From contig CAJTEM010000039.1 of NCBI GenBank assembly GCA_910575255.1, positions 1-46,963 on the forward strand: DNA of 46,963 nt, written 5' to 3'. The position numbers and the translations under genes were made by a program. Positions 2,595 to 46,963 of the stretch are shown one piece after another. The stretch's first letter is position 1, and the number at the start of each line of letters is the position of its first letter. This DNA is from Lachnospiraceae bacterium (GTDB taxonomy: Bacteria; Bacillota; Clostridia; Lachnospirales; Lachnospiraceae). The notes below the pieces were generated by a model. That model had not been told where the DNA came from, made no database searches, and saw only the letters and a program-made list of their open reading frames with translations.

Positions 2595-2694
2595 TAAAAT
2601 TGTTATCACTTCTTTTGTTGGCTTATGATATAATGGTTTTTATTGAATGTGAATATTGTCCGGCATAGAGCCGGTATATAAGGAGGTATCAGGT

Positions 2695-3783: not shown

Positions 3784-3804
3784 CACAATTTGATATTCTG
3801 GAAT

Positions 3805-3853
3805 AAAAAAGGCTTTAGCTGCCAGTCCCGGAAGTTGAAGCCTTTTATTTTTT
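3805..3853 (+). terminator. Intrinsic terminator after the repeat protein
   Basis: An AAAAAAGGCTT arm pairs with AAGCCTTTT across a loop of about 20 bases and is followed by ATTTTTT. It separates the repeat protein from the GH25 gene. Confidence 0.75.
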
Positions 3854-3946
3854 CAGGCAAAATTCCGCTCGCATAGACAATCGCAGCCCCAACCAACTGT
3901 CTTTGCAAGCTTTCACACATGATTTGAAGAAAGGAAGGAACTACGA

Positions 3947-5629
3947 TTGAAGAACCATCGCCAAAAAACATTTTCTATCAAAGTACACCCCCGTCGATTT
4001 GCCGCTCTGGGGATCGCTGTGGGCATGTCCCTGTTATCCCCGTTCTCCTCGGTTTATGCAGCCTCCAGCCACGGCCGGATCGGAGAGAACACTTATCAGC
4101 TTAAAGACGGCACCCCAATACCTGGTGTTTTGGCCAGAGGTATTGATGTCTCTCACTGGCAGGGTCCGATCGACTGGCAACAGGTAGCTCAAAATGACAT
4201 TTCCTTTGCCATGCTGGGAACCCGGTACAAGGGCCAGGTAGATCCACGCTTCCATACCAATGCCACCGAGGCTTCCAATGCCGGAGTTCAGCTGGGAATT
4301 TACATATATTCATACGCAACGAATCCTGCCATGGCAGAGGCGGAGGCGGATTTTGTACTGGATCTGATTAAGGATTATCCTGTCTCTTATCCTGTTGCCT
4401 TTGATGTGGAGGATTCGGTTCAAAGCACACTCTCTCCCCAGGAGCTGGCTGATATTATCAATGCCTTTTGCCGCAAGATTAGTGCTGCCGGTTATCATGC
4501 GATCTTATACGCCAACGATTACTGGCTGGCGAACAAGCTCGATCTGTCTCTTCTGGATTATGATGTTTGGGTAGCCCGTTACGAAACCCGCCATGCCTTT
4601 GAACATCCGGTCATGTGGCAGGCAACCAATACCGGATCCGTGGACGGCATCAGCGGTAATGTGGATATTGATTTTCAGTTTCGGGACTTCTCGGATGTGA
4701 TTCATCCAAATCTCTGGAGAACTATTGGCGGCAACACCTATTATTATCAGGATCATCGGATGCAGAAGGATACCTGGATTCACGACGGAACCGGTTGGTT
4801 CTTTATGGATACGGACGGACTGGCTGTCAGCGGATGGCTTTCCCAGAATGACGCCACCTATTATCTGGATCCGGATTCCCGGCGGATGACAGTAGGTTGG
4901 CTGGCATTTCCAGAAGGCTGGCGGTATTTTGACAGCAGCGGAGCCATGCAATCCGGATGGATCCATGACGGAAATGCCCGGTATTATCTGAATCACGATG
5001 CTCTGATGCAGACCGGATGGCTGCAGGATGGGGATGTCTGGTACTATCTGAGAGAATCCGGCGCCATGGCAGATGGATGGAATCAGATCAATGGAATCTG
5101 GTATTACTTTAACGGCAATGGGATCATGCAGACCGGGAGACAGCAGATCGATGGCAGCTGGTATTATTTTGATAATAACGGAGCCATGCAGACCGGCGCA
5201 CTTCAGATTGGTGAAAACTGGTACTATTTTGAAGACAATGGCGCTATGGGCACCGGGCGCAGGCAGATCAATGATGCATGGTACTATTTTAATGACAGTG
5301 ACGGAACCATGGTCAGCGGCTGGAAACAGCTTGATGGACTCTGGTACTACTTTGGCGATGACGGAAAGATGCAGACCGGCTGGGTGGGAGATGAATCTGC
5401 CTGGTATTATCTGAATCCGGAGAATGGCGTTATGTATGCAGATGCACAGATTACCGTGAACGGTGTGACCTATCAGGTTGACGCAAGCGGTGTCTGCCGA
5501 GAGGTCATTCCGGAAGAACAGCCGAAAGAAAATAGTGAAGAGTCCGCCACAGATGCTCCCTCTGCAGAAAATGCAGAAGCTGGCAGTCTTCCTGACGGAC
5601 CCGGCCGCTTAGCCGGACCAGGAATGTAA
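3947..5629 (+). CDS. Secreted GH25 lysozyme with choline-binding-type repeats
   Basis: This 560-residue protein starts at TTG (3947) behind AAGGAAGG; no better ATG exists in frame. Residues 1-38 are a signal peptide. Residues 62-245 are a glycoside hydrolase 25 muramidase domain, with GIDVSHWQG (Asp67) and the catalytic pair AFDVED (Asp153, Glu155), plus the terminal MWQATN and DIDFQF strands. Residues 255-520 are about a dozen aromatic repeats of the choline-binding type. A Glu/Ser-rich tail ends in GRLAGPGM, loosely like the GLTGGPKP end of the preceding protein. This is the architecture of pneumococcal-phage lysozymes of the Cpl-1 type, except that here it has a signal peptide. It should cleave peptidoglycan glycan strands while anchored to choline-bearing wall polymer, in wall turnover or competition. 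Confidence 0.92.
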   Translation: MKNHRQKTFSIKVHPRRFAALGIAVGMSLLSPFSSVYAASSHGRIGENTYQLKDGTPIPGVLARGIDVSHWQGPIDWQQVAQNDISFAMLGTRYKGQVDPRFHTNATEASNAGVQLGIYIYSYATNPAMAEAEADFVLDLIKDYPVSYPVAFDVEDSVQSTLSPQELADIINAFCRKISAAGYHAILYANDYWLANKLDLSLLDYDVWVARYETRHAFEHPVMWQATNTGSVDGISGNVDIDFQFRDFSDVIHPNLWRTIGGNTYYYQDHRMQKDTWIHDGTGWFFMDTDGLAVSGWLSQNDATYYLDPDSRRMTVGWLAFPEGWRYFDSSGAMQSGWIHDGNARYYLNHDALMQTGWLQDGDVWYYLRESGAMADGWNQINGIWYYFNGNGIMQTGRQQIDGSWYYFDNNGAMQTGALQIGENWYYFEDNGAMGTGRRQINDAWYYFNDSDGTMVSGWKQLDGLWYYFGDDGKMQTGWVGDESAWYYLNPENGVMYADAQITVNGVTYQVDASGVCREVIPEEQPKENSEESATDAPSAENAEAGSLPDGPGRLAGPGM

Positions 5630-5694
5630 GTGCACAGTCACAACCCCGCTGCAAGCAGCGAGGCATCAAGCTTTCTGCGCTGCAGAGCAGCGGG

Positions 5695-5767
5695 GTATGT
5701 GACCATCGCGGCATTCGCCAAATGCTCATGCAGGCATGGCACTTGACTCATTGCTCGCGGGAATCAT
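5695..5767. repeat. 73-bp dispersed intergenic repeat, copy 1
   Basis: This stretch matches 11185-11257 over its full 73 bases without gaps, with blocks such as GCATTCGCCAAATGC and GGGAATCAT identical. A diverged inverted copy lies near 22464. It follows a separate hairpin (GTCACA..CCCCGCTG at 5636-5650 pairing with CAGCGGGG..TGTGAC at 5687-5702). It holds no ORF. Confidence 0.7.
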
Positions 5768-9197: not shown

Positions 9198-10052
9198 TTA
9201 TTCGTTGATTGCCCTCAGAAATCTCCTCAGCGCATCCTGCCAGTCCGGCAGCCGCTTAAAACCATTCTCTGTCAGCTTTTCTTTACTCATCCGACTGTTT
9301 GCCGGGCGCTTTGCCTTGGCCGCAAATGCCTCACTGCTGACCGGGGTCACTTTCACTTCATCCATACCGGCCTGACGAAAGATCTCTCTGGCAAATTCAT
9401 ACCAGCTGCACTCCCCCTCATTTGTCGCATGATAGCAGCCATAACGGTCTGTCTGAATCATATCCGTCAAAAGCCGCGCCAGATCATAGGTATAGGTAGG
9501 GGAACCCACCTGATCATCCACCACACTGACTGCGCCCTTCTCTCTGCCCAGGCGCAGCATGGTTTTGATAAAATTCTTTCCTGCCACACCGAATACCCAG
9601 GCAATGCGTACAATAAAATACCGATCCACCAATTCCTCAATGGCGATCTCACCTTCGTATTTTGTCTGCCCGTATACATTCAGAGGAGCCCGTTTATCAT
9701 CCGGTTCCCACGGGCGCGTTCCTTTACCGTCAAATACGTAATCCGTGCTGATATACATCAGCTTCACCCCTGCCTCCCGGCAGGCCACGGCCACATTGCG
9801 GGTTCCCTCTCCGTTGATTTTCCGGCAAAGCTCCACCTGATCCTCAGCAGCATCTACTGCAGTATATGCTGCACAATGAATCACTGCGTCAGCCTTTGCC
9901 TGAGAAATCACACGGCGGCAGGCATCCGCATCCGTAATATCCATCTCCTCTACGTCCACGCCGATACCTTCCAGCCCCTGCCGTGCCAGCTCATTCATCA
10001 AATCCGTGCCAAGCTGTCCCTTGGCGCCAGTCACCAATACCTTCATGCTCAT
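9198..10052 (-). CDS. rfbD: dTDP-4-dehydrorhamnose reductase
   Basis: This 284-residue short-chain reductase carries out the last step of dTDP-L-rhamnose synthesis. The Rossmann motif VTGAKGQLGTD begins at residue 6. The STDYVFDGKG stretch and the YGQTKYEGE Tyr/Lys pair form the catalytic site typical of RmlD. AGGAG precedes the start by 8 bases; an alternative ATG lies two codons in. It is 27 bases after rfbB on the same strand and is probably cotranscribed. Confidence 0.95.
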   Translation of the reverse strand: MSMKVLVTGAKGQLGTDLMNELARQGLEGIGVDVEEMDITDADACRRVISQAKADAVIHCAAYTAVDAAEDQVELCRKINGEGTRNVAVACREAGVKLMYISTDYVFDGKGTRPWEPDDKRAPLNVYGQTKYEGEIAIEELVDRYFIVRIAWVFGVAGKNFIKTMLRLGREKGAVSVVDDQVGSPTYTYDLARLLTDMIQTDRYGCYHATNEGECSWYEFAREIFRQAGMDEVKVTPVSSEAFAAKAKRPANSRMSKEKLTENGFKRLPDWQDALRRFLRAINE

Positions 10053-10079: not shown

Positions 10080-11102
10080 TTACAGTCTCTCTCCATACAT
10101 CTTCTGGAAATAATTGCTGTATTCACCGCTGATGATATGCTCCCACCACTCGCGGTTCTCCAGATACCACCGGATCGTCTGCTCAATCCCGGTATCAAAA
10201 TTATAAACCGGTTCCCAGCCAAGCTCCTTCTCCAGCTTTGCCGGATCAATCGCATACCGCATGTCATGTCCCGGGCGGTCTGTTACATATTTGATCAGGC
10301 TCTCCGGCTTATCCAGGGCGCGCAGGATCGTCTTCACTACCTCCAGGTTCGTCCGCTCGTTATGGCCGCCGATATTATAGACACAGCCGTCCTCTCCCTT
10401 GCGGATGATCAGGTCGATCGCCTGGCAATGGTCATAGACATGAAGCCAGTCACGGACATTTGCCCCGTTTCCATACACCGGAAGCTCCCCGTCTGCCAGC
10501 GCCCGGCTGATCATCAAGGGGATCAGCTTCTCCGGAAACTGATAAGGCCCATAGTTATTCGAGCAGCGGGAAATCGAGACCGGAATGCCGAAGGTCCGAT
10601 GATAAGCCATCACAAACAAATCCGCACTTGCTTTGGAGGAAGAATAGGGGCTGGAGGTATGCAGCGGCGTCTCCTCCGTGAAGAACAGATCCGGCCGGTC
10701 TAGCGGCAGATCTCCGTACACCTCGTCTGTAGATACCTGATGAAAACGCTGAATGCCAAACTCCTTGCAGGCATCCAGCAAGGTTGTGGTTCCCATCACA
10801 TTCGTCCTCACAAAAATCCCCGGATCTGTGATAGAGCGATCCACATGGCTCTCTGCCGCAAAATTCACCACCACATCCGGCTTTTCCTTTTCAAACAGGC
10901 CGAAGATAAATTCCCGGTCTGCGATGTCACCCTTAACAAAACGGTAATTCGGCTTATTCTCTACCGGCTTTAAAGTTTCCAGATTACCGGCATACGTAAG
11001 GGCATCCAGATTGATAATCTCATCCCCCGGATACTTTTCTGCCATATAATGTACAAAATTTCCGCCAATAAAACCAGCTCCGCCTGTTACAATAATCTTC
11101 AT
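10080..11102 (-). CDS. rfbB: dTDP-glucose 4,6-dehydratase
   Basis: This 340-residue extended short-chain dehydrogenase converts dTDP-glucose to dTDP-4-keto-6-deoxyglucose. It has GGAGFIGGNF at the N-terminus, STDEVYGDLP (catalytic Thr-Asp-Glu) and YSSSKASAD (Tyr-x3-Lys), all as expected for RmlB. The start at 11102 is preceded by AAAGGAAAC. It lies downstream of rfbA, with a 73-bp dispersed repeat in the 159-base gap. Confidence 0.96.
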   Translation of the reverse strand: MKIIVTGGAGFIGGNFVHYMAEKYPGDEIINLDALTYAGNLETLKPVENKPNYRFVKGDIADREFIFGLFEKEKPDVVVNFAAESHVDRSITDPGIFVRTNVMGTTTLLDACKEFGIQRFHQVSTDEVYGDLPLDRPDLFFTEETPLHTSSPYSSSKASADLFVMAYHRTFGIPVSISRCSNNYGPYQFPEKLIPLMISRALADGELPVYGNGANVRDWLHVYDHCQAIDLIIRKGEDGCVYNIGGHNERTNLEVVKTILRALDKPESLIKYVTDRPGHDMRYAIDPAKLEKELGWEPVYNFDTGIEQTIRWYLENREWWEHIISGEYSNYFQKMYGERL

Positions 11103-32797: not shown

Positions 32798-32817
32798 TAA
32801 GTCTCCATAAGTCTACA
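32798..32817. repeat. 10-bp tandem repeat at the end of the integrase gene
   Basis: TAAGTCTCCA and TAAGTCTACA stand side by side and overlap the integrase stop codon (32813-32815). Tandem short repeats beside an integrase gene are typical of arm-type integrase binding sites near an att end. The exact crossover site cannot be set from one end. Confidence 0.4.
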
Positions 32818-34036
32818 TAACTTTTCTTGAAAATGGTGTAAAATTTGGTGTAAAAATTTCCCCTCCGCAATCCAGTATTTTCAACCTGTCCATCTCTCTT
32901 TTCACCCTCCCAACATCCACATGATTATACACTCTCATTGTAGTTCTGATATCCGTCTGTCCCATAAGGTATTGTAGCACCTTAATATCACAACCAGATT
33001 CCGCAAGCCTACAACATGCGGTATGTCTTAAAATATGAGGACTTATGTTCGGCAACTGAATTTCTCTTTCACTGTTCATCGCCACGATCGTTCTCATCAT
33101 CCTTCTTACACTGTTATGACTCATACATTTTCCTGTCATATGAGAGATAAACACAAAATCCTTATACCCATCTACAACAAAACCAGGGGCTTTCTCTGTC
33201 ATTAACCAAATCTTCCTCTGCTCTATAAACAAAGAGTATAATTGATCCGTCATAGGGATCACCCTTTTCCCCGCGCTTGTCTTTGTGGTATTCGCATACA
33301 GCTTCATATCTCCCTGTACCTTTCGATATTGTACCTGGTGATTTACATAAATTTCTTTTTTCTCCATGTCAACATCATCCCAAGTCAGACCAACCACTTC
33401 ACTTATACGCAGACCTGTCTGGAGCATAATTGCATACATGGGATAGTATCGCTTCATTCTTGGACGCATTTTAATTCTGTCTAAAAACTCTTTTTCTTCT
33501 TCAAAAGTAAGTGCGTACTTCTTTTCCATATCTTCTGCATATTCTCTTGTACAGCCATCTGCCGGATTTTTCATAATTACATCATCATCACATGCAAGCT
33601 GTAATGCCGGACGGATGATCTTATGAATGATTTTTATTGTTCCTGCACTCAGGCCATGTTCGGTCAATGAATGATAGAAAATTAATATGTCCGACTTTCT
33701 TATGTCTACAACCTTTGCTCTCCCGATTGGGCTGTTCTTAATGATATGTTCAAAATAGTATCGATAATTTTCTCTCGTTGAATTGGCCAGCCTTATTTTT
33801 GTTTTTAAATATCTCTCAATCTGCTCATTTACTGTATACGACTTCCTGCATACTCCTATTGCTACTTCTCTGCCAATTTCTTGCTCCATTTCACGTAAAT
33901 CAGCCAATGTCTGTGCATACACACATTCTCTCTTCCCGGCAGGATTTCCCCAGCGGTACATATAAGTGCCATCCTTCCTTTGTGTTTCCCCCTTTCTCAA
34001 TACTCTTCCTTTATTATCCTTTCGTTTATTTGCCAT
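32813..34036 (-). CDS. int: Tyrosine recombinase (Tn916-type integrase)
   Basis: This 407-residue integrase has an N-terminal arm-binding domain (residues 1-65, KGETQRKDGTYMYRW), a SAM-like core-binding domain and a C-terminal catalytic domain. The latter has the Arg in TGLRISEV, HILRHTACC (His-x2-Arg), the later GQTDIRTTMRVY and the nucleophile Tyr. An AAAGGAG lies 7 bases before the ATG. The excisionase lies immediately upstream on the same strand, as in Tn916. It marks one end of an integrated element whose other end is beyond or inside 46.9 kb. Confidence 0.94.
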   Translation of the reverse strand: MANKRKDNKGRVLRKGETQRKDGTYMYRWGNPAGKRECVYAQTLADLREMEQEIGREVAIGVCRKSYTVNEQIERYLKTKIRLANSTRENYRYYFEHIIKNSPIGRAKVVDIRKSDILIFYHSLTEHGLSAGTIKIIHKIIRPALQLACDDDVIMKNPADGCTREYAEDMEKKYALTFEEEKEFLDRIKMRPRMKRYYPMYAIMLQTGLRISEVVGLTWDDVDMEKKEIYVNHQVQYRKVQGDMKLYANTTKTSAGKRVIPMTDQLYSLFIEQRKIWLMTEKAPGFVVDGYKDFVFISHMTGKCMSHNSVRRMMRTIVAMNSEREIQLPNISPHILRHTACCRLAESGCDIKVLQYLMGQTDIRTTMRVYNHVDVGRVKREMDRLKILDCGGEIFTPNFTPFSRKVM

Positions 34037-34115: not shown

Positions 34116-34328
34116 TTATATTGAAAATTGTCTTTCCACATACTCGACAAATTTTTTTCTCTTAATTAATCTTTTGTTCCCTACCCATAATACAAATGAA
34201 CATTTATCATCATTTGACAATTCCCGGATCCGATTTATACCAATTCCAGAATAGGCAGCAGCTTCCTCCACCGTCAAATTTAATTTTTCCCAGATTGGTA
34301 CTTCTTTTATCTTTTCTGTACTTCGCAA
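34116..34328 (-). CDS. xis: Tn916-type excisionase
   Basis: This 70-residue DNA-binding protein has VPIWEKLNLTVEEAAAYSGIG followed by INRIRELSNDD and GNKRLIKRKKFVEYVE, matching the Tn916 Xis pattern. It directs excision with the integrase 79 bases downstream. It starts at ATG 34328; an AGGAGG lies upstream in the 34330-34340 stretch. Confidence 0.92.
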   Translation of the reverse strand: MRSTEKIKEVPIWEKLNLTVEEAAAYSGIGINRIRELSNDDKCSFVLWVGNKRLIKRKKFVEYVERQFSI

Positions 34329-34470: not shown

Positions 34471-37400
34471 TCATACTATAACGGAGCTGCTTCTTAATTC
34501 ACCTGCCATACGATTCTTTGCAAAATCATCAATCGCATTCTGAATCAATCCTACTGTCCGTTCACTGGCGTCTCCCTGTACAACAACAGAGTTATTAATA
34601 TTAATGTTTGGTTCAATGCTTCTAATAATAGATGGATCTATTAAACTCTGATTCGGACTCTGATTCAGACTCTGATTCAGAATATGCTTTTGATTCCGGT
34701 TCCATGGAGCGTCCTCTAATAACTGGTCACTCATTCGGGCTAACCGTTCATAGTTCTCCTTCCAGGAAGCCTTCGACTCAAACGGGTCACTCGTTTGAGA
34801 TAATTTCCAAAGCATGTCAACCTGGTCGGAATTAAACACACGGTCACCATAGTCTAACTGTCTAAGTGCTCCGTCTTTGGTAATCAGAACTTCGGAACCA
34901 AGTTCCTCTTCATCTGTCAACGCAATACCCTTTTGTGCATGTTTCGTCCCACTCCGATAGGCAATATCATAACCAAGTTCATCAAACTGCTTCTTGGTCA
35001 AAATTCCATCCGATTCTCTCCAGGCACCATCTTCGTCAACAAGGTAATAACCATTCCCGTCTTTTGCTTTGACTGCTGCATCCCTTGCCATGGAACCATC
35101 CGCAGTTAAATAATACCATTCACCACGTTTTCCCTGAATCCATTGAGATTTCTGCATCTCACCTGTATCTTTGTCGAAGTAATGCCAGTCACCTTGGGAA
35201 TCATCCCATTCTGTTTTCATATAACCGTCTTCATCGAAGCCGTATGTTTTTCCATTGATGTTGTAATAACCATCTTCTGCATACCAGTAATCACCGTCTT
35301 CCTGGTAGTCTTCACCAAACCACCATTTGCCACCCTTGCCTTTTTGCCATTTTCCCTGACTGGAGATATCCTCATAATCCCCATCACTACCATATCCTCC
35401 ACCTAATTCATCCATTCCCCTGGTCATATTGCTCCAGTCAATGCTGTTAATCTGGTATTGGATAGAAGCGATTGTATCAGCAAACACGCTTTGGAAAGAT
35501 TGAGTTGCCATTTCAGCAGAAGAGAAGGGGCTGGTCAGGTCTTCCGTTACTGCCATATTATACTCATCGGCGTAAAGTGTAAGAGTATCATATACTGTAG
35601 AGTAATTATTAGTAACCTGACCAAGATATTTCTTAATTACTTCTTCCTGAGCATCTAAATTAGTTCTAAGGTCTTCCAGTTCTTTTTCCTTAGCTTCCTT
35701 ATATGCATCCCCTTCTTCCTCTAGGGCATTCTTTTGTGACTCTACGGAATGTTCTCTCTGATATTCCGCTAAATCTTCTCTTGCTTTTGCAAGCTCCGCT
35801 TCCAACTGTAGACGCTGGGCAATATCAGCCCGGTCACTGGAAAGGGATAATACCTGAATTTGACGCTCCAACATAGCAATATTCCGGTTGTCGCTTGCAA
35901 TCTTTTTCTGGTATTCGTAAAGCTCTTTTTCTTCATCCAGTAAATCAATTTTAGCCTGGATTAGTTCTTCCATGGCATCGATTTCTTGGTTGATTGCTTC
36001 CTCCCGCAAGGCAATGATAGCATCCCTGGCCTCTTTAGTAGCCAGAGCGGCCTCCTGTTGGGCACTTCGATATTCATACAATTTTTCATTGTATTCTTCT
36101 AAAGTAATGTCTCCATTCCGGTAAGTTGCATTTAAGGCTTTAATAGCGGCCTTATATTCCTCAGCTTCCTTTTTGGCATTGATGATCTGCCTGGAATACA
36201 TAGCAACGGTAGTAAGACCACGGTCGGTCAACATTCCATCTTTTACCAGTCCATCATCACCAATCAGGGAAACCATATTAGAAAGTTCATTGTTAACCGA
36301 ATCCAGCTTCGATACAAGATCTTCTAATGGTTGAAACCGTAGTTCAAAAATCTGGTCTTTGAAATCCTCAACCGCATTGGCACAATTAATCATCTCTGAC
36401 TTAATACCAATCAGTTCTTCCTTCATTTCATACCATTTTTCCGTACCTTGCTCAATTCCTCCGGAATTCAGTTCATTATTCAATTCTTCATATTTCTCAG
36501 CCAGGGTATCATAGATTTCCTGCTGGTCGTAAATTAATTCCTGGTAATCATCCTGGTCTAAACGCTCACCCATCCGGTCACGTACACTAACCAGATCTTT
36601 CCGGTAATCCGTATACGCTTTCATGAGGCTGACAAGCTGATCGTAATCCTTGATGATGTTATCCAGTTTTATCTCTCTGGTTTTCTTTGCTTCGTCATTG
36701 ATTTCTTCGATTGCTTTTTCGCATTCTTTTGCTTTTTCATACCACTTTTGATAATCCTTAATCATTTCCTTGAGATTATCATCTTTTACCTCTTCAATGT
36801 CAAGCTCGCCATTCTGAATCTTATTGACATAGATATCAGACAGGCCTACAGAATTTGCTTCCTGCATATAACGATCATAGGCTGACTTGGACTGCTCCAG
36901 TTTTGCTTGCAGTTCATCAAACACAGTATCCTGAATTTCATTCTTTGCCCGCCAACCTTTTGCATCGGTAGCTTTCTTCTGTAATTCATCGATCTTTTCA
37001 TCGGTACGCTTGATTAGGGTTTCAATCCAGTCGTAAACTTCAGCAGCACTCTTTTTCTCTTTACTTCCGGAACCACCGCCAGAGCCACCGGAACCTCTTG
37101 AGGATTTGACTCCCCCACCTGTAAATTTAGTGTTTTTAAAGTTTGCTTCCAAATCTTCGGCAAACTGTTTTTGGTGAATTGCAGCAATGTCTGCATACTG
37201 GGATAGCACTTCATCCTTTGATACTACACTACCATCTTCATTGTAAGATTGGTAACTGGGATCATTAGCAATTGCTTCCATCCTGGCTTTAGTAGCGTAA
37301 TACTGCCGCCATGCATTCGTAGCAATTCCCAGAGAGTTGACAATGCTGGCTAATGCAGAGATGTCTCCACTTGGGTCAAGGGCTGCTTCTGCCATCATCT

Positions 37401-39219
37401 TTTGTACGATGTAGGAAACAAATGCATCTTCTGCTGTCCCTACGGCACCCGCCTCTTCTGCTAAAGCAAGGATTTCATCCGCAGTAGCATTGGTTAAATC
37501 CCTAGACTTCCATGCGGCCTCTGCTTTCCGCTCTGCTAAGGATGCATCCACTAATTCCTGTGCATTGGCAACGCCCATATTGGAGAGCATAGCTGTCGTT
37601 AAATCCGCAGTGCTTTCACTTACATGGTCAAGAACCCCAATGCTGTTAATCCATTCTGTCAGTAAACCATCAAAAGCAGACTGACAAGCAGTAATATCAC
37701 TGGGTGAATTTGAAATTGCATCAATAAAATTGGTATAAGCATCCCCTAATCCGGAGAAAGTTTCTTTGAATTTGTCATCATCTAACAGTTTATAATCAAA
37801 TGGTTCATAATCTGAGATGCTGGAATAGATTTTATCCAGTTCCTCAAATCCTTCTGACATCTCATTGATTGCGGAGATCATTTCCTCTTTGTTGAATGGA
37901 AGGATGGGAGAGGAAGCAGTGCCAGCATTTCTTTCCGCATCAACTAAAGCATTAATGTGTGATACTGTTTCTTCAGCAGTCTTACCAGTTTCATCTAATA
38001 ATTCTTTATACTCTTCATTCGATTCCAATACTTCCGGTGTCAATTCCCCTGCTTTTGATAATTCCTCTAATTGTTTTCGGGCAGAAGAGAAATCCGCAGA
38101 TTCCCACACTTCATTAAATTTATCGGTTACGTTTTCACCAGCACCACCAAACAGATTAGCATATCTATCCACAATCTCATTAATAGAATCCATATAAGAC
38201 TGGTCATAGTCTGGATTTAATGATGCCCTAAATTGGTCTAATTCTGGAACGGTTTCATATAATGTAGTTTTCAATCCATGGAGTGCGTCATCATAGGAAT
38301 TTAATTCCATGGTTAAATTTGCGAATCGGCCTTTTTGCTCTGCCGTATATTGATCGGCATCGGGATTTGCTAATTGGAAATCCTGGATCCGTTTTTCCAC
38401 ATCTTCTTTCCGCATCAATAAGTCTTCGTATTCTGACAATTGGAGTTTTGCTACCTCTAATTGGTTCCCTTGAAAGATCTCACCTGCATTACGTTGTCCA
38501 TAATTGCTATTACCGTTAAGGACTTGTGATGTATCCCATTCCCCGTATTGCTCATAGGTTGTTTTCTTATTTAAAAAGTCTAATGCGGTATCTCTGGCTT
38601 TCCCTTCCGCAACATCAAGTAAAACCTTATTTAGCTCAATTTGATGTTCTAACTCTTCATTTGCCTCTTTAAGTTTCTTCAGTTCTTCTTGTTCAACAAA
38701 GGTGAGGTTGGGTTTCTTTTCTAATTCCTCAATCCGATCTCCGGTACTCTTTAACTCAGAATTCAGCGATTCACTTTTAGATTTCAGGTTATTGAATTCT
38801 TCTGCCGCATTAATAGCAGTTTCTTTTAATTCTTGATAGGTAACTACTACTTGGTCAATAACATATGCAATAGCCTTAAACGCTAATGTAGTCGCCAAAG
38901 CAATTCCCATATTTGCTGCTACGTTTTTTAGAGTGGAGGCAAATTTTGAAGTAGAAGTGGAGGCTTGCTGTAGGTGATTTTGGTATGATTCTGCTATGTC
39001 ACCTGTTCCATCCCAGGTTTGGAGGAAAGATTTTAAACTATCATTTGTAATTTCCATTTCACCTACAAAACCATCTGAAAAGTCAAATTCGAAACCATCA
39101 TTAATAGAAGATTGTATGTCTAAAATTATTTTTTTAGTTTCTTCACTTATTTCTGGTAATTTCTTTTTAAAGTTATCAAGAAAATTTGTCCATCCGTCAT
39201 CACTGTCATAGTTTACAAC
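34471..39219 (-). pseudogene. Phage tail tape-measure protein, C-terminal module, 5' truncated, with choline-binding-type repeats
   Basis: The frame is open from about 39219, but the first ATG (39057) lies inside conserved sequence and has no ribosome site, so the 5' end is missing. From that ATG it gives 1528 residues. The order is a hydrophobic helix pair (about 40-70), long coiled coils, a Gly/Ser-rich break near residue 650, more coiled coil, then about 105 residues of choline-binding-type repeats (about 1230-1335, DNA 35060-35370). Next comes the tape-measure C-terminal signature (SGTKHAQKGIALTDEEELGSE, DYGDRVFNSDQ) and the NININNSVVVQGD tail. Tape-measure proteins set phage tail length and can act on the wall during injection. 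Three 12-bp tandem repeats (34645-34680) encode NQS-type residues. It could still be translated by coupling, but nothing upstream supports that. Confidence 0.75.
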
Positions 39220-39286
39220 GATTTTAATATATGATATACTTTTTATAAATTACTTGGAATAATTTATAAAAATGAGGATAAGACAA

Positions 39287-39760
39287 ATGGATAATGATAG
39301 ATTAGTAATTTGCCGGAAATGTATAGAAGATTTCAAATCTATACCTTATACAACACCATTTCAATATAGAGGTTTATATACAAATTTTAAAGTTCCAGAT
39401 GATAATTTATGTAATATATGCAAAGAAAAATTATATATTACAGAGGTTACAAAAGATGAGATAAAGATTCTGTATTCAATATCTCATGATAATTCTTTTC
39501 TTCATGAAATGATAAAACTCAAAGAAACCGATCCAATTGAGTATCAATTAAAATTATCTCAATTCAAAAACCATGTGCAACAACAAAAGATGGCGCAAGA
39601 AGAACAAAATACCAATAGATTAAAATGCCCATACTGCAATAGTACTAATGTAAGAAAAATTGGTAGTGGCGAGAGGGCAATGTCTGTTTTAGGGTGGGGA
39701 TTATTGAGCAAAAAAATCAATAAATCATTTAAATGTAATAATTGTGGGGGAACCTTCTAA
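39287..39760 (+). CDS. Zinc-ribbon small protein 1, divergent from the tape-measure C-terminal module
   Basis: This is a 157-residue protein of unknown function. The N-terminus has two Cys pairs (VICRKC and NLCNICKEKL), the middle is a charged helix, and the last ~45 residues are a zinc ribbon (CPYCNSTNVRKIGSGERAMS to CNNCGGTF). The start at 39287 follows GAGGA by 9 bases; an ATG at 39272 overlaps that site. Three more proteins with the same end are at 40876, 41512 (truncated) and 45615. It begins 67 bases from the broken 5' end of the tape-measure module, facing away. Very AT-rich. Confidence 0.7.
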   Translation: MDNDRLVICRKCIEDFKSIPYTTPFQYRGLYTNFKVPDDNLCNICKEKLYITEVTKDEIKILYSISHDNSFLHEMIKLKETDPIEYQLKLSQFKNHVQQQKMAQEEQNTNRLKCPYCNSTNVRKIGSGERAMSVLGWGLLSKKINKSFKCNNCGGTF

Positions 39761-39796
39761 GTCATAAAAACACCTTCTTTCAAATTATTAGAATCA

Positions 39797-39857
39797 AATA
39801 AGGCTGCTCTATAAAATACACTGTGTTAATAATGTGTTTTATACAGAAGCCTTATTT
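39797..39857 (+). terminator. Long terminator after zinc-ribbon gene 1
   Basis: AATAAGGCT.CT.TATAAAA.ACAC pairs with GTG.TTTTATA.AG.AGCCTTATT across about 10 bases, followed by a TTTT run. It abuts the stop codon of the alternative tape-measure module on the other strand and could serve both. Confidence 0.75.
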
Positions 39858-40751
39858 TTACTGTTTACTAATTAATTCCTCATATACCGCAATCTGACCT
39901 GCAAGATCAGGTGCATAGAAATCTGTGATTACACCTGAATAATCGATGTAGTCTTTTTCGTTTTTAACACGGGTATCAGATAACTCATATTTGCCAAATT
40001 CTTTCTTATAAGCATCTACCGTATCATCAGCTGCTTGTTTGGCATTGGATTCTAATTCTTTTTCCTTAAGAGCCTGTTGCATAGTAAGCTCTTTTGTTAT
40101 CTCTTGTAACCGTTCCAGTTCGCCTTTTTCTGCATAGGTGAGATGGTCTTTCGCATTAAGTTCATCTATCCTTTCCCCTTGAGTTTTCAATTCAGAAGAT
40201 ATAGATTCTAATTCTGATTTTACAGACTCATAAGAGGAAACAGAATTATCCATTTTCTCCTTAGCAATCTCAACACGATTAATATAGTTACTAATAGCAG
40301 TAGCTGCTAATTCTATCCCTTTTGTTATCGCGAACATTGCTGCCATGTTGAGTGCGGTTGCGAGGGCCTGGAAAGCAATAGTGGCTGCTTTAGCAGAGAA
40401 GGACATAGTATTTAAGGATGCTCTGAATCCCTCAGTTGTCATTTCTCCATTTTTACAGGTTTTAGCATAGTCAATGATTCTCTCATCGATATTCTCCATC
40501 TGTTCTGCTAATGCTTCTGCGCTGAGAGATGAGGTGTTGAATTTTTCTTTGAACTCATCAAACTGTGATAATACTTCTGGTGTTAGGGTGCTTTTTTCTT
40601 TTTTATTACTGAAAAGTGAAGCAAATGCTCCGTCTTCACCAAATAGGTTACCAATCTTAACATTTTTGACAAATTCATTCCATTTTTTCTTTATTTCATC
40701 TATTGTACTTCCAAATATAGCAAGTTCGTTGTTTACTGTTGAAAAAATCAT
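39858..40751 (-). pseudogene. Alternative tape-measure middle module, truncated at both ends
   Basis: This frame of 297 residues is paralogous to the N-terminal part of the 34471-39219 module. It has a similar paired hydrophobic helix (residues ~128-165), then SELKTQGERIDELNAKDHLT against SELKSTGDRIEELEKKPNLT, and both reach a Y-EEL/Y-EDL segment. This copy stops there with TAA. No ribosome site precedes the first ATG (40751), which lies in tape-measure-like sequence. It therefore looks like an orphan cassette rather than a complete gene. A zinc-ribbon gene starts 125 bases away, divergently, as for the larger module. Confidence 0.7.
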
Positions 40752-40875
40752 ACAATTTATATATATGTTGTGGAGACATACGGTGCGTTTGTGGAGAACG
40801 CAGTTTTATACCATGTGGGGTGGTATTTTTGTTTTAAATATGCTATAATTTAGAAAAACTTTGAGGTGAATAAGT

Positions 40876-41448
40876 ATGGGAAAAGTAATGTATTGCGAAA
40901 AATGTGGAGACGTTGGATATATTTTATTTCGTAAAAGATGTAAAAACTGTGGTATACAATTAAAAATATTATCAAAGGAAATGAAACAAAAATATAATAT
41001 CTTTAATGACAGTTGGTCGGAAATTTTATCACAATTAAACGGTTTCTCTAATAATACTATTATTGGAACTATTAACGAGGAACTTGCTTTAAGAGAAGAA
41101 CTGATTTCTCGTACTAATAATTTTGTCATGAATGAACTTGCTGATAATCCTATATTTTCTTTAGAAACTTATAACATTCAGATTGAAAAAGAACGTGAAA
41201 CAAATAAAGATCTTGCAGAGTTTCATCATCAACAAAGTCGTAAGCAACAAGCAAAAAATCTAGCCAAAATGCAACAAGAAAAAGATAAGCAAAATTGTAT
41301 TCCTAAATGTCCCATTTGTGGTTCAACAAATATAAATAAGATTACAATAGGAAATAGGGCAGTAAAGACCGCAGTTTTTGGTGTTGTTGGAGCAGTAGAT
41401 GATGCTGGAAAAACATATAAATGTAATAATTGTGGTAGTAAGTTTTAA
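40876..41448 (+). CDS. Zinc-ribbon small protein 2, divergent from the alternative tape-measure module
   Basis: This 190-residue protein has an N-terminal pair of Cys pairs (YCEKCGD, CKNCGIQLKIL), a charged helical middle and a C-terminal zinc ribbon (CPICGSTNINKITIGNRAVK to CNNCGSKF). The ribbon is clearly related to that of 39287-39760. GAGGTG lies 8 bases before the ATG. A hairpin plus T run (40814-40837) and a TATAAT at about 40848 lie in the divergent gap. Function unknown; nucleic-acid binding or partnering with the adjacent module are guesses. Confidence 0.7.
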   Translation: MGKVMYCEKCGDVGYILFRKRCKNCGIQLKILSKEMKQKYNIFNDSWSEILSQLNGFSNNTIIGTINEELALREELISRTNNFVMNELADNPIFSLETYNIQIEKERETNKDLAEFHHQQSRKQQAKNLAKMQQEKDKQNCIPKCPICGSTNINKITIGNRAVKTAVFGVVGAVDDAGKTYKCNNCGSKF

Positions 41449-41511
41449 ACAATCAATTGGAAAAATATGATAAAATGAATTTTATAATAAGTTGATTCGG
41501 AGGAAGCATTA

Positions 41512-41838
41512 ATGCTTTGTTACTGTAAAAAATGTGGGAGAGTAGTGCAACGAACTTCTAAAAATTTGGAAAAGCCATGCGACTATTGTAATAACAGTTT
41601 AAAAATAGTTCCAAAAGAATTTACGGCAAGTGGGTTAGAAACATGTTTAGAAGATGAATTAAAACAACAATTTATTGATGAATATATCAAATCATCTCCT
41701 GAATTTGACCAATATCTATTCGAACATCGAGATGAAGATTTAGCAAAGCGTAGGATGGAAAATAAAACAAAGCTAGATCACGGAAAACAAATCCTAGAAG
41801 AACAATCTCGTCTACCAGGATGTCCAACTTGTACTTGA
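41512..41838 (+). pseudogene. Zinc-ribbon small protein 3, truncated in its C-terminal ribbon
   Basis: This frame of 108 residues begins like its neighbour (YCKKCGR, CDYCNNSLKIVPKEF) behind a good GGAGGAAG site. It breaks off at GCPTCT just where the ribbon should continue. The TGA arises in unrelated DNA that belongs to the end of the minus-strand gene at 41812-42183, so a recombination junction lies near 41830. It is 63 bases after zinc-ribbon gene 2, making a tandem pair. Confidence 0.65.
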
Positions 41839-42183
41839 ACCATCATACTTTAAATATTCTGGGATATAGTAACACATAATATGATTAAAATTACTATCTC
41901 TTAGACAACTAATATAAAATATGGGAGAATTATCTAATTCAAATTGTGTCTTTTCTAAATCAATTTGTACTTGAACCAATCTATTAGCTGATATTGCTAC
42001 CCATATAGAGGCAATAGATAAAGATGCCATTACAATGGTTTCAAAATATATCTTTAAATGATTTAATAGCGGGCAGATAATATTATCAATTTTTTTAATT
42101 GGCTTTTTAAAAATATAAGTTATAATAAAAATCCAAGATATAATTGTAAACCCAAGAAAAATATTTCTAAATATAAAGATCAT
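41812..42183 (-). CDS. Membrane protein of unknown function, C-terminus altered at a junction
   Basis: This frame of 123 residues has two or three hydrophobic segments (IFIFRNIFLGFTIISWIFII near the N-terminus, ETIVMASLSIASIWVAISAN in the middle). AAGGAA lies 6 bases before the ATG. It ends in a Ser/Thr/Trp stretch that is antisense to the truncated zinc-ribbon gene, so the natural C-terminus has probably been lost. It follows 42288-42620 on the same strand. Family not recognised; AT-rich. Confidence 0.5.
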   Translation of the reverse strand: MIFIFRNIFLGFTIISWIFIITYIFKKPIKKIDNIICPLLNHLKIYFETIVMASLSIASIWVAISANRLVQVQIDLEKTQFELDNSPIFYISCLRDSNFNHIMCYYIPEYLKYDGSSTSWTSW

Positions 42184-42287
42184 AGATTATTCCTTTGTCA
42201 AAATCACATGATTTAATGAATATTGTTATTTTTTAAATATAAAAATTGTTTTACATAATCATTCCAATTCAAATGATTTGGACTTTA

Positions 42288-42620
42288 CTACTTAGATTTT
42301 TGATCTCCTATTATATATCCGATCACTAATGTTAATAGTGGTACAAATATTCCCCAGATTTCTTTTACCAACTCAAAATTATCTCTGAAAAAATACGAGC
42401 AAAATGTACCTACTAATAAAATAAGAAACGATATAAGTAAAGCAATATATAATTCTGGATTTCGATTTCCAAATATTCTATCAAACAAACTTTCATTACC
42501 TCCTGGTATATTATTAATTACTTGATGAATCAAATCTGTTTTTATGTCTGTATTCAAATCAGAAGATGTAAGTTCTGTTATCATTTTAGCGGTGCTTTCG
42601 CTTTTCTTTTTCGTAACCAT
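42288..42620 (-). CDS. Small membrane protein with two transmembrane helices
   Basis: This 110-residue protein starts at ATG 42620 (GGTGG 5 bases upstream) rather than at the upstream GTG. The N-terminal half is soluble and charged. The second half has two membrane helices (ALLISFLILLVGTFCSYFF and IWGIFVPLLTLVIGYIIG) and ends in GDQKSK. Its stop is 104 bases before the next minus-strand gene. Function unknown. Confidence 0.6.
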   Translation of the reverse strand: MVTKKKSESTAKMITELTSSDLNTDIKTDLIHQVINNIPGGNESLFDRIFGNRNPELYIALLISFLILLVGTFCSYFFRDNFELVKEIWGIFVPLLTLVIGYIIGDQKSK

Positions 42621-42634
42621 ATTACCCACCTTAT

Positions 42635-43003
42635 CTAATAAATATATAATGTATAATACATCATTCTAGGATTATTTGAATTTGGTCTGCTAAAATGATA
42701 GTGACAGAATAATATTTTTCCATCTGTAAATGTTGCTATTCCTGTTGGGTTTTGGGTTCCATTCCCAAAAGGATTGCTTCCATTAGTAATAATTAATTCT
42801 AAAAAATTTTCATTATGTCTTCCTAAAGAAACATTAACATCTTCATCGGGATTTCCTGATTTAAAAGTCCATAATAAATCTAATTCAAAATCATATTCTG
42901 GTTTTAAATCAATATGTAATTTTGCATTTGATATACTTGATTTTAATATAAAGTTACCACTAGCAATAACTTTAATATCATCACTATATTGTTCAACTTT
43001 CAT
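42635..43003 (-). CDS. Hypothetical protein, DUF6864-like
   Basis: This 122-residue soluble protein is rich in beta-strand-like sequence. The ...ITNGSNPFGNGTQNPTGIAT... core and the C-terminal YYTLYIY resemble the DUF6864 pattern as I remember it, so the family is a tentative call. GGAG lies 8 bases before the ATG. It is 14 bases from the two-helix membrane protein, so the two are probably cotranscribed. Function unknown. Confidence 0.55.
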   Translation of the reverse strand: MKVEQYSDDIKVIASGNFILKSSISNAKLHIDLKPEYDFELDLLWTFKSGNPDEDVNVSLGRHNENFLELIITNGSNPFGNGTQNPTGIATFTDGKILFCHYHFSRPNSNNPRMMYYTLYIY

Positions 43004-43093
43004 AAGAATATCTCCAAATGGTAAGTTTTGGTAAGTTTTCTTATATTATACTACAAGCATTTGGATAATTCTACAAAAAATTACTCAATTTAA

Positions 43094-43574
43094 TCTTTTA
43101 TTGCTTATTTCTTTTCATCACCCTGTTTTCCAAGCCAGCAGTGATGTTGTGTAATTTGTGCCAATAGAGCAGTAGTGATTGTGCAATAAATTGTAAGGTT
43201 AATTGTATGTCACTAAAGTTCGTTCCTCTGTTGGCTCCACATAGCCTTTCGCTATGGTTACGGACTGTATATTGTAGCAACGAGACACAATTACGCCTGT
43301 GCCCCTCTATGTCTTGTCAGCCTCTCGCACGATATATTATGACATTACACTATCAATCTAACACATACCGTGTCGGGATTACCATTTTTGTACTATATAC
43401 TTATTCTCTCATGAAGCATAGAAAATCTATACCTTTTATTTCATCAATCAAGTACCTGTTACCAGGCTTACGGCTTCCCCCGATATTCGACAATTTTAGT
43501 TTTAAAACTAAGGTTAGTCTGTTTAATAAACGATTATTTTACAGAACACTCTCTATGTTGGCTACATGGCATTA
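43094..43574 (-). ncRNA. Transposase-less IS110-like non-coding region (possible orphan bridge-RNA relic)
   Basis: There is no credible gene here. On the minus strand the order CCATAG-hairpin-CTATG, GGAGC, ACAG, GG, ACGAA and TTTAGTGAC (43258-43207) parallels the IS110 3' region (46399-46320: CCATAGGG-hairpin-CCCTGT, GGAGC, ACAGG, CGGGACGAA, AGTTAGGAC). A GGCTGACAAGACATAGAGGG stretch lies upstream, like the GTCAGTAAGAC of the IS110 copy. It directly follows the broken tape-measure middle piece. The alignment was done by eye, so the call is tentative. Confidence 0.35.
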
Positions 43575-44309
43575 TTATGCAGCTTTATAAAAAGGGACTT
43601 GTAAACTATGAAATTTTGTAACATTGTTTGTTAATCCTAACCCATTTGCGCCTAAGATACCACTAGCTCCAATACTAATAGTTCCTAGACTTCCTAGTGT
43701 AGATGTTAATGTTTCTACTACACTTAAAACAGAATTAAACCCGTTTGTAACACTAATTAAAGCATCAGTATCAATTACATTATTTACAATAGAAGTCCAT
43801 GTATTGCCAAGCCTATTTAAACTTCCAGAAAGGTTATTGGCAGATTTCATAGCTTCTTCCATTGCTGAGCCAGATCCCTGATTATATAAATCCAGCATAT
43901 TATAGTAGCTGTCAAAATCTGATAAAATAGCAGCAAGAGTATTTGCATGATATTTTGAACCAATATCATTTAAAATGTTAGATCTTAATATAGAACCTTC
44001 TGGCAGTTCAGTAAATGATTCTGATAGTTCTTTTAATAATTCGATAGGTGTTTTTAATATTTCTGCTCCATTGACAAATTTTGTCATTGAAATATCAAGT
44101 TCATCAAATACATCTACAATCGGCTGTTTAGTAGTATCTTGAAGATTAATAAAAATACTTTTTAATGCATTACCAACTTCTGAACCAGATTCTCTTGTCT
44201 TGGAGACAGCAACCGCAGTTAGTGCAGATAATTCATCAATTTGAACACCATATTGAGCAGCGATTGAAGCTGCCTCAGATGTTGCCTGTGCCATATCCTT
44301 CATCCTCAA
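43575..44309 (-). pseudogene. Tape-measure protein, middle piece, broken at both ends
   Basis: This frame of 244 residues is tape-measure core sequence: DELSALTAVAVSKTRESGSE, VGNALKSIFINLQ and LKELSESFTELPEG, then a hydrophobic Gly-rich stretch. It ends in KFHSLQVPFYKAA, which comes from non-tape-measure DNA. Its beginning overlaps the preceding N-terminal piece by 35 bases in another frame and repeats a homologous segment (compare QMGNAFKGILMNL with EVGNALKSIFINL). The junction therefore looks like recombination between two tape-measure copies, not a simple frameshift. Confidence 0.75.
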
Positions 44310-45531
44310 CTTCGCCTGTCACCTGCCACAAGTTCATTAATATCCCTTTGAAAGCATTTCCCATCTGACTTCCTGACTGCTGAGTTACCGCAATCATCGT
44401 TGCTAAAGCCGCTGTCGTTTCGTCTACTTCCATCCCTGAACTTGCTGCCTGAGAACCAACAATGCTCATTGCTTCTGCTAAATCAGACATCGATAGTGCA
44501 TTATGATTTGTAATGTTATTGGCACCGTCTAATGTCGTCGTTAATTTTTCTATGGATCCGTTCATTTGGAACGCCTTATCAGTTGCAACGATATATTTGT
44601 TTGCCAGCTCAGCAGTCATATCACCTGCACCTTGTACTTTCGTGCTTAACTCTGCCATAGTATCAGAATTCCCATATCCAGCACGAGCCATTTCCTGCAC
44701 TCCAAGCAAATAATTACTGGAAAGTTTTCCATATTTGCTGGCAATCTTAAAGGATTCATCCCCAATCTCTTTCAACTGCTGCTTTGTAAGGTCAGAAGTC
44801 TTTGATATTTCGGTGAGAATTGTATCATTTGATTTTAGCGTCTTTAATGATTTAACAAAGTTATTTACGGCCATGCTGGCTACCCCAAAAGCACTGGATA
44901 TCTTTGAGATATGTCCCAGCATATTTTTAATTTTATCTGTTGTACTTTTTGTGTTAAATCCAGTAGCCGCAACTTCTGATTTGTATAATTGGAAGGCGTC
45001 CGTCGCTTCTCTTAAAGTCTTCTTATCTCCAACTGAATTAATAAGTTCCCGGACTTTTTCTGCTTCCTTTAGTAGTGTTGAGGACTCATTAATTTTTGTA
45101 TTTTTGTTCAGATAAGTTGTCAAGTCATTGTCTAATTTTTGCTTTTTATATTCAACATTTACGCCTATAGGCACTCTATCGGCATAAGACCGGAGGTCAG
45201 CAACTACCTTCCGCATTTTAAGCTTTGTTTTATTTTCATTAATATTTAATGCATCAATTTCTTTAAAAGATAAGTTGCTTAAGGTTTTATCAATTTCACT
45301 CTTTAGCTCTTTACTATCCATCTTTGCTTTTAGTTTAATCATGGATAATTGATTCGATAACTGACTAATATAGTCATTCAATTCTTTCTTAGTATCCCCT
45401 TTTGCAAAAGTTCCGGTAAGGCGTAACATATTAATTGTTTTTTCGAGCACCTTAATATCGGAATTGATTTGCTTCCTGCTCTTGTTTTGGTCTAATGCGC
45501 TGATAAGTTCTAATGTAAAATCCTCGTTCAA
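44275..45531 (-). CDS. Phage tail tape-measure protein, N-terminal piece
   Basis: This frame of 418 residues starts at TTG (45531) with AGGAGG 9 bases upstream. The N-terminal ~150 residues are coiled coil. The rest is the TP901-type tape-measure core (SSAFGVASMAVNNFVKSLKT, LTEISKTSDLTKQQL, LGVQEMARAGYGN, VGSQAASSGMEVDETTAALA, NAFKGILMNLWQV). It then leaves the family pattern after GEVEDEG and stops. A complete tape measure would continue for more than 1000 residues. The missing parts exist as separate pieces downstream, so this gene is truncated although its start is intact. Confidence 0.8.
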   Translation of the reverse strand: MNEDFTLELISALDQNKSRKQINSDIKVLEKTINMLRLTGTFAKGDTKKELNDYISQLSNQLSMIKLKAKMDSKELKSEIDKTLSNLSFKEIDALNINENKTKLKMRKVVADLRSYADRVPIGVNVEYKKQKLDNDLTTYLNKNTKINESSTLLKEAEKVRELINSVGDKKTLREATDAFQLYKSEVAATGFNTKSTTDKIKNMLGHISKISSAFGVASMAVNNFVKSLKTLKSNDTILTEISKTSDLTKQQLKEIGDESFKIASKYGKLSSNYLLGVQEMARAGYGNSDTMAELSTKVQGAGDMTAELANKYIVATDKAFQMNGSIEKLTTTLDGANNITNHNALSMSDLAEAMSIVGSQAASSGMEVDETTAALATMIAVTQQSGSQMGNAFKGILMNLWQVTGEVEDEGYGTGNI

Positions 45532-45614
45532 ATTTGTTTTCCTCCTATTTTTTGCTTAATAAAAGAGAGACTATGATTATAATCCCTCTAATCTTTCATC
45601 TTCCCTATTCAGTT

Positions 45615-46085
45615 TTAAAACTTCCTCATACACTTAGCACATACTCGTTCTAATTTATTTGTTGCAAATCCTGTTAACAAACTAAACTTTTTGGGTACTA
45701 TTTTTATATCAGTACACCCACAATAAGGACATTTTACGGTTGTTTCTGATGGTGTTTTATTAACAAATGCATCTGGGACATAGGTTCGTAAGATTTCTTT
45801 TGCTTGTTCTGAACTTCCTTTTGAATCTCTTGGTGGTGCTTTGAATTCTTTGATAAGTTGCGTATCTACCCATTTATCTAAATCAATTGCTTCGTCTCTT
45901 AATGTAAAACAATTAGTTTCTATATCCTTATAATAATACCAAGTAATCCAATCCGGATGTTCATCTTCATCCTGAAGCTCTCCACCACACACAGGACAAA
46001 CATCTGCATTCCCCTGCTTCCCCATGAGAAACATCCTATTAAAACTACTTCCACATTTTAAACACTTTACATTGTTAACCTCCAT
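45615..46085 (-). CDS. Zinc-ribbon small protein 4, upstream of the tape-measure N-terminal piece
   Basis: This 156-residue protein has two N-terminal Cys pairs (KCLKCGS, CPVCGGEL), an acidic and aromatic middle (PDWITWYYYKD) and a C-terminal zinc ribbon (CPYCGCTDIKIVPKKFSLLT to CAKCMRKF) like the three plus-strand zinc-ribbon genes. GGAGGATAGTA precedes the ATG. Unlike those genes it lies on the same strand as, and 83 bases before, the tape-measure start, so the two may be cotranscribed. Function unknown. Confidence 0.75.
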   Translation of the reverse strand: MEVNNVKCLKCGSSFNRMFLMGKQGNADVCPVCGGELQDEDEHPDWITWYYYKDIETNCFTLRDEAIDLDKWVDTQLIKEFKAPPRDSKGSSEQAKEILRTYVPDAFVNKTPSETTVKCPYCGCTDIKIVPKKFSLLTGFATNKLERVCAKCMRKF

Positions 46086-46613: not shown

Positions 46614-46963
46614 TTATGCTGCCTGCACCTGCGGTCTCCGGATGTCGCCCAGCAGCTTATTCCCATCATAGTCCACACCTTTTGTCAGGATTGTATAAAA
46701 TACTCTTATGATCTTGCACGCAACGGCTATCACTGACGGCATCTTTTTTAACGGATTTTTCCCCCTTGTCCGATAGTATTCATGGATTTCTTTGAATTCA
46801 CGGTTCTTTCCTATCAGCGAGATTGCCGCTTCGTACAATACATACCTGAGACGTTTCCGGCCACGGTAGCTGATCCGGCTTTCGCCGTTATGCTTACCGG
46901 AATCGTTGGACACGATTGCGTATCCTGCCAGCTTCTGCAGTTGTTTGGGGTTATCAAAACGTC
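46614..46963 (-). mobile_element. IS110-family transposase, C-terminal part, 5' end outside window
   Basis: The frame is open to the right edge and encodes RFDNPKQLQKLAGYAIVSND, then SGKHNGESRISYRGRKRLRY and YYRTRGKNPLKKMPSVIAVA. This is the Transposase_20 (IS116/IS110/IS902) domain of IS110-family DEDD recombinases, including the catalytic serine region typical of the family. The protein ends LLGDIRRPQVQAA. The N-terminal DEDD domain lies beyond the window. Confidence 0.9.

Follow-up and report, generated by a model that had tools for sequence, protein, structure and literature searches.

The tape-measure locus

On contig CAJTEM010000039.1 of a Lachnospiraceae bacterium, analysed over its full 46,963 nucleotides (the window), a phage-type tape-measure protein (TMP) gene lies in pieces, accompanied by zinc-ribbon genes. 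The four minus-strand pieces listed by the first-pass annotation of this DNA are borne out by open reading frame (ORF) calls and by tape-measure PHROGs, which all four match; Pfam PhageMin_Tail is matched by 44275-45531 and 43575-44309. We consider it probable that the gene is split by a large, cargo-bearing group I intron, and that cassettes are stacked in the window. The features concerned are listed below (L numbers denote loci and G numbers assemblies).

45615..46085, minus strand: zinc-ribbon ORF upstream of the TMP gene and in the same direction (Zn_ribbon_8, 6.8e-07, below cut-off)
44275..45531, minus strand: TMP 5' part, L031 lineage (PhageMin_Tail, 1.4e-13; 59% to L031 over 409 aa)
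43575..44309, minus strand: second half of the TMP 5' exon, L045-like (68% to the L045 5' exon)
43060..43620, outer limits approximate, minus strand: predicted class C group I intron ribozyme (aligned with L122 and L126)
42635..43003, minus strand: cargo ORF, DUF6864 (PF21732, 2.9e-12)
42288..42629, minus strand: cargo ORF without family match
41812..42183, minus strand: cargo ORF without family match
41512..41838, plus strand: antisense zinc-ribbon ORF, C-terminal part lost (50% to the L057 ribbon; one TGA within the profile match)
40876..41448, plus strand: antisense zinc-ribbon gene adjoining the putatively trapped 3' exon (59% to the L059 ribbon; profile 2.3e-46, partly a self-match since the profile includes this ribbon)
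39858..40751, minus strand: putative extra TMP 3' exon, truncated, class A/B type, IFSTVN start (64% to the L045 3' exon start)
39272..39760, plus strand: antisense zinc-ribbon gene adjoining the long 3' exon (profile 2.6e-43, likewise partly a self-match; near the L108 ribbon)
34471..39219, minus strand: TMP 3' exon, class C type, VVNYDSD start at about 39190 (42% to the L045 3' exon over 1531 aa)

The exon end of the 43575-44309 piece falls at about 43640-43600, and the 3' boundary motif of the 39858-40751 piece at about 40753. The long piece, which contains choline-binding repeats (Choline_bind_3, 4.1e-12), has an ORF of 34471-39057 when read from its ATG, its frame being open up to 39219. 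Divergent zinc ribbons had been described at 67-125 bases from the TMP modules, and this holds roughly: the ribbon at 40876 is 124 bases beyond 40751, and that at 39272 lies 52 bases past 39219, a distance of 214 if counted from the ATG at 39057. Divergence does not extend to every ribbon, the one at 45615-46085 being co-directional with the TMP gene. This ribbon clusters apart from the intron zinc ribbons and is 56% identical to the ribbon upstream of the uninterrupted TMP gene in L036.

A recurrent split at one site of the gene

Searches with the N-terminal piece gave matches in 7 of 61 relatives and in 14 of 299 genomes of the family. At 13 of the 17 places found among the 299 genomes the open frame is shorter than 650 residues (some are cut by contig ends); two more are of about 800 residues, and two, L031 and L036, are long and uninterrupted. 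In the window's own genome, a search at E 0.001 gave no second copy of either the N-terminal piece or the beginning of the long piece. ORF maps of the relatives have a common order of tail genes, TMP 5' part, 0.7-2 kb without TMP, TMP 3' part (reaching about 2000 aa) and more tail genes, and directly before the 3' part lie opposite-strand zinc-ribbon ORFs (L034, L035, L045), other antisense ORFs (L033) or nothing (L039). The combination of a split TMP with an opposite-strand ORF ahead of the 3' part recurs, beyond chance, in other Lachnospiraceae and in phage loci. Six contigs (L030, L032, L037, L038, L040 and L044) stop at most about 1.3 kb downstream of the TMP-N match; such ends suggest repeated intron or exon sequence that assemblers leave unresolved.

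The position of the break is also shared. Homology to the uninterrupted L031 ends at residue 559-566 for 10 of 11 distinct 5' exons tested, the exception being L137, where it ends at residue 587 on L031 and at 566 on L036. In the window, homology to L031 stops at residue 564 in the 43575-44309 piece and resumes at residue 563 in the 39858-40751 piece, so that the exons abut.

Predicted ribozymes in the gap

Within classes, aligned stretches of the gap (about 210-610 nt) show 70-81% identity, a value above that of the TMP 5' parts compared (30-41% identity to L045; 66% for the window piece). Comparative analysis sorts the introns at the TMP gaps into three or more group I classes, with compensatory changes seen in the core. 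In class A (10 sequences), 97.2% of cells are paired and 14 pairs are doubly changed (shuffle mean 7.3, 0/500), two of them in P3 and three in P7 (RNAalifold was also run). The class A 5' site is U.G in eight of the ten sequences, C-G in one and unpaired in one; by eye, a G stands ahead of the 3' exon and the exons join in phase. Class B (9 sequences) has 90.3% of cells paired and 17 doubly changed pairs (shuffle mean 6.7, 0/500), with all four P3 pairs and no P7 pair changed in this way. Used as a pattern, the RNA 3' motif was found at 14 genome loci (in Lachnospiraceae, other Clostridia and "bacterium" records), four of which are on contigs already met (L033, L034, L035, L046) and hence not independent. 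All 13 that have upstream sequence follow a truncated TMP-N ORF, TMP identity being partly judged by eye, as do all four viral matches to the class A/B motif, two of them near-identical.

The structured RNA of the window (about 550 nt, 43060-43620, minus strand) lies directly after the TMP-N break and matched neither class A nor class B; comparison brought out a P7-P8 block that it has in common with further loci, termed class C. In the window, the P3 5' strand lies at about 43492-43489 and its 3' strand at 43313-43310, P4 is formed by 43483-43479/43377-43373, P7 by 43322-43318/43267-43263 and P8 by 43305-43298/43289-43282. The class C P7-P8 pattern occurs on 11 viral contigs, nine times after a truncated TMP-N ORF (two of these contigs being near-identical and one already known) and twice as a chance coding match. 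Two phage records, one of 165,772 bp (L122/L137) and one of 136,782 bp (L126), align with the window along the intron. P3 reads UGUC/GACA in the window, L122 and L126, and AACC/GGUU in L038, L127, L121, L124 and L128 (by eye), so all four P3 pairs are changed between the two groups, with GAAUA constant in J3/4. For P7 and P8 together (11 sequences), 97.6% of cells pair and 18 cells are doubly changed (shuffle mean 6.1, 0/500); counted as pairs, five are doubly changed (shuffle mean 3.2, 18/500), all in P8.

Other searches returned few relatives. Among 397 family genomes the window RNA had no real homologue (a match in G148 lies in an unrelated coding region), a pattern made from its 3' piece matched no viral contig, a first viral scan with the raw middle TMP protein found no relative, and the phages collection held distant TMP matches only and none for the zinc ribbon.

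Several observations weigh against a split by group I introns. Insertions also occur away from the hot spot, near residue 134 in L058, near 508 in L053 and at a second site in L137. P1 and the splice sites are assigned for class A only, not for B and C. The P7 helix of class C has one-sided changes and no double change, and a group I descriptor applied to the window RNA alone scores near background (20/400 shuffles; 21 loci when the full window is scanned). Directly after the class B RNA of L050, and likewise after the class A RNA of L130, stands a class C P7-P8 block, possibly a sign of tandem or nested introns. The window 5' exon is out of frame. Finally, for the window and the scanned regions of classes A/B, Rfam yielded no usable family and no match to its group I model (RF00028). 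A match in the Rfam library is a usual aid to recognising a group I intron, not its defining feature. The sole Rfam group I match, in L107, is full-length and weak (20.4 bits against a gathering threshold of 50, E 0.055), and at the gathering cut-off ten further loci gave only skipping-rope RNA. In L101, a skipping-rope RNA (9499-9581, minus strand, 74.7 bits) lies between the TMP 5' and 3' parts, in the intron region.

Two other kinds of element were considered and dropped. A group II intron was set aside, the scanned ORFs holding no reverse transcriptase, the Rfam scans that were run giving no group II match and the core being of group I type; an IStron was set aside for want of an IS605-family gene among the scanned ORFs.

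A chimeric and stacked copy in the window

The two 5' pieces, 44275-45531 and 43575-44309, share a homologous stretch (43% over 60 aa) and belong to different TMP lineages. The reading frame is broken at their junction, where about 60 residues of homology are repeated, and for this reason a full TMP is unlikely to be made from the window copy, which is probably not functional. That the junction is an assembly artefact was judged unlikely, with only about 8 shared bases there (by eye). By its similarities, the window copy is a mix of three TMP lineages, one L031-like, one L045-like and one represented by the long piece (42% to L045). In the phage locus L137, a second interruption of the TMP gene (1346-4491, at about L031 residue 348) holds a zf-FCS ORF. 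The window junction lies near the place that matches this interruption.

The earlier description of the 39858-40751 piece and the C-terminal module as alternative versions of one segment agrees with their overlap by homology (32.7% over 147 aa). By eye, the 3' exons of the class C loci L137, L108, L109 and L129 start with sequences resembling VNYDSD or AVQYNS, likewise the long piece of the window, and the 3' exons of class A/B loci mostly start like IFTTxN, as does 40751-39858. Because of these class-specific starts, the long 34471-39219 piece is likely the partner 3' exon of the window's class C ribozyme, and 39858-40751, with its own zinc ribbon, would be an extra, truncated 3' exon trapped inside the intron. 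Stacking would then have lodged a class A/B-type 3' exon and ribbon downstream of the class C ribozyme and ahead of another 3' exon and ribbon, of class C type, behind a 5' exon that is a frame-broken chimera of two lineages.

Cargo of the predicted introns

Cargo genes sit between the ribozyme and the 3' exon and often include an antisense zinc-ribbon gene. Other cargo is varied: GmrSD_N or NsnA-like proteins in L051, L048, L052 and L129, GmrSD_N beside the 3' exon in L103, an HNH endonuclease in the L053 insertion, an M23-LysM protein after the RNA in L065, and GNAT and PemK-like proteins in L137. In L129, adjacent PtuA (445 bits) and PtuB (289 bits) genes, a Septu pair of predicted defence genes, lie between a class C ribozyme and the TMP 3' exon. 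At 3683-5703 (minus strand) of this 122-kb viral contig, the TMP intron holds PtuA/PtuB together with an NsnA-like ORF and a capP-like/Peptidase_M78 ORF. PADLOC gave no match for the window ribbon at 40876 or the DUF6864 ORF, and no IS605-type transposase or TnpB was found among the intron ORFs scanned, which are part of the cargo ORFs.

Zinc ribbons and exchange of 3' exons

A ribbon profile built from seven TMP-linked ribbons, three from sampled genomes and two from the window among them, matched 51 places in 28 of 299 genomes. Of the 22 loci (29 places) whose surroundings were inspected, 12 have opposite-strand TMP pieces nearby and 10 do not; eight further places, in five loci, were already known to be TMP-linked, and 14 weaker places lie outside this count. 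Nine of the ten loci without TMP pieces score below 82 bits, and the tenth, L104, reaches 100 bits and comes from a contig of 6.8 kb. With a profile that was itself built from TMP-linked ribbons, these counts do not show the random spread of the ribbon family relative to TMP genes that the first-pass annotation had named as a sign of simple decay.

Similarity between ribbons correlates with similarity between 3' exons (r=0.496, p=0.0002, 18 loci; r=0.544, p=0.001, 14 loci) and not with that between 5' exons (r=0.034, p=0.40, 14 loci), and the correlation of 3' with 5' exon similarity is weaker (r=0.298, p=0.025). These values are for 3' exons cut down to their starts, a choice made once an initial run on untrimmed exons had given r=0.39 (p=0.0002). 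Close physical linkage of ribbon and 3' exon could alone be sufficient for such a correlation. Tandem ribbons occur in L045 (87.5%), L035 (86%) and L042 (100%), and the inner copy in L035 keeps a degenerate 3' boundary and RNA 3' domain (by eye). L107 has two tandem copies of the ribbon/3' exon unit, the tail of the first being uncertain, as aligning the locus with itself points to a scaffold gap at 10567-10664 (flipped coordinates).

Two TMP loci of one assembly indicate that C-terminal DNA recombines. In assembly G178, an uninterrupted TMP gene (L036, 12399-17373) and an intron-split one (L101) share 4978 bp at 99.3%, covering about 880 C-terminal residues, and the upstream parts are unrelated. 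The TMP C-terminal region thus appears to have been exchanged recently between these two loci, which may stem from different strains, G178 being a metagenome-assembled genome. Movement of ribbon and 3' exon as a cassette is supported by these comparisons.

Interpretation and alternative explanations

The gene family is organised and mobile; splicing and exon swapping as its function we infer from sequence. A tail-operon transcript would carry the 5' exon, ribozyme, cargo and 3' exon, and the ribozyme would remove itself and the cargo and ligate the exons. A zinc-ribbon gene or other antisense cargo could in this way be expressed apart from the late operon without loss of the tail. Because the zinc-ribbon gene abuts the 3' exon, recombination would carry the two together as one cassette and alter the C-terminal part of the TMP, a reading that the comparisons support. 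It is possible, though we regard it as doubtful, that introns at the TMP hot spot serve as a protected landing pad for defence and host-interaction genes and as an exon-shuffling joint where the phage alters its TMP C-terminus by exchanging cassettes of antisense zinc-ribbon gene and 3' exon, with stacked 3' exons used for alternative splicing or kept in reserve.

Simple decay, in which recombination and frameshifts break up a prophage tail region and the window has no working intron, would explain the frame-broken junction of the 5' pieces, the truncated 39858-40751 ORF and the truncated third ribbon, and distal tail genes were not found ahead of the integrase that follows the long piece. We nevertheless think it unlikely, as many other loci have the same layout of split gene, intron and antisense ribbon while their exons remain open, and the ribozyme core is conserved in the window. 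An uninterrupted relative had been expected to speak for simple decay; such relatives exist (L031, L036), yet their existence together with a ribozyme indicates insertion instead.

The first-pass annotation had compared the locus to the orphan-cassette arrays of polymorphic toxins, in which stored C-terminal modules and protecting partners would be swapped into a master gene. The part of this proposal in which C-terminal modules travel with a partner gene is supported by the co-variation of ribbon and 3' exon, the stacked units in the window and L107 and the exchange in G178. The toxin mechanism is not supported: no toxin domain was found in the C-terminal pieces, these pieces are TMP 3' exons with choline-binding repeats, the gap is best read as a group I intron within which the partner is antisense, and the co-variation could come from linkage. 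An array of this kind is, in our view, quite unlikely.

It is highly improbable that the N- and C-terminal parts are separate proteins and the RNA a non-splicing regulatory or mobile element, since, even though splicing here is a prediction and the long window ORF has its ATG at 39057 after AGGTG (by eye; a sequence outside the Shine-Dalgarno motif list used), no start preceded by a listed Shine-Dalgarno motif was seen among the first six in-frame starts of ten 3' exons, and the group I core covariation and the phase and splice-site bases of class A argue for splicing.

Relation to known systems

Group I introns in structural genes are described for Cluster J mycobacteriophages (LittleE capsid, BAKA/Optimus tail), and the LittleE intron holds an opposite-strand reading frame; splicing was shown there by reverse transcription PCR (PMC3706429). 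The intron-split TMP genes are alike in having a group I-type intron within a phage structural gene and an opposite-strand frame, as in LittleE. They differ in that the Cluster J passenger is a homing endonuclease or none (PMC3706429), whereas here the host gene is a TMP, with several intron classes, varied cargo and 3' exon exchange. Prophage phi2 of Clostridium clostridioforme is tabulated with two tape-measure ORFs (PMC11318856) and might be another split TMP. Searches of the open-access PubMed Central literature turned up no report of tape-measure genes split by introns that carry cargo of this kind.

IStrons combine a group I ribozyme with IS605-type genes. The TMP introns resemble them in having the ribozyme at the 5' end and protein genes between it and the 3' boundary, and differ in that the scanned ORFs have no IS605-type transposase match. 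In polymorphic-toxin orphan cassettes, a C-terminal part and a small partner gene move together and can stack; here, by contrast, the modules are TMP 3' exons behind an intron and the partner is antisense. The adjacent PtuA/PtuB genes of L129, a putative Septu system, are paired as in known Septu defence loci and differ in sitting inside a phage TMP intron.

Many "truncated" TMP genes of gut Firmicutes phages may be intron-split, and ribozyme classes missed by Rfam, with cargo islands (once a Septu pair), may hide in an essential structural gene. If 3' exons do swap through the intron, these phages would offer one of the rare examples of exon shuffling mediated by an intron in bacterial viruses.

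Neighbouring genes

At 46614-46961, the window holds an IS116/IS110/IS902-type transposase (6.2e-14) that is cut by the contig end, the upstream part of the element being missing. On the other side of the TMP pieces lie two genes of Tn916 type.

34116..34328, minus strand: Tn916-type excisionase (PF09035, 1.7e-22)
32813..34036, minus strand: Tn916-type integrase (Phage_integrase, 1.3e-31; Integrase_DNA, 3.7e-19)

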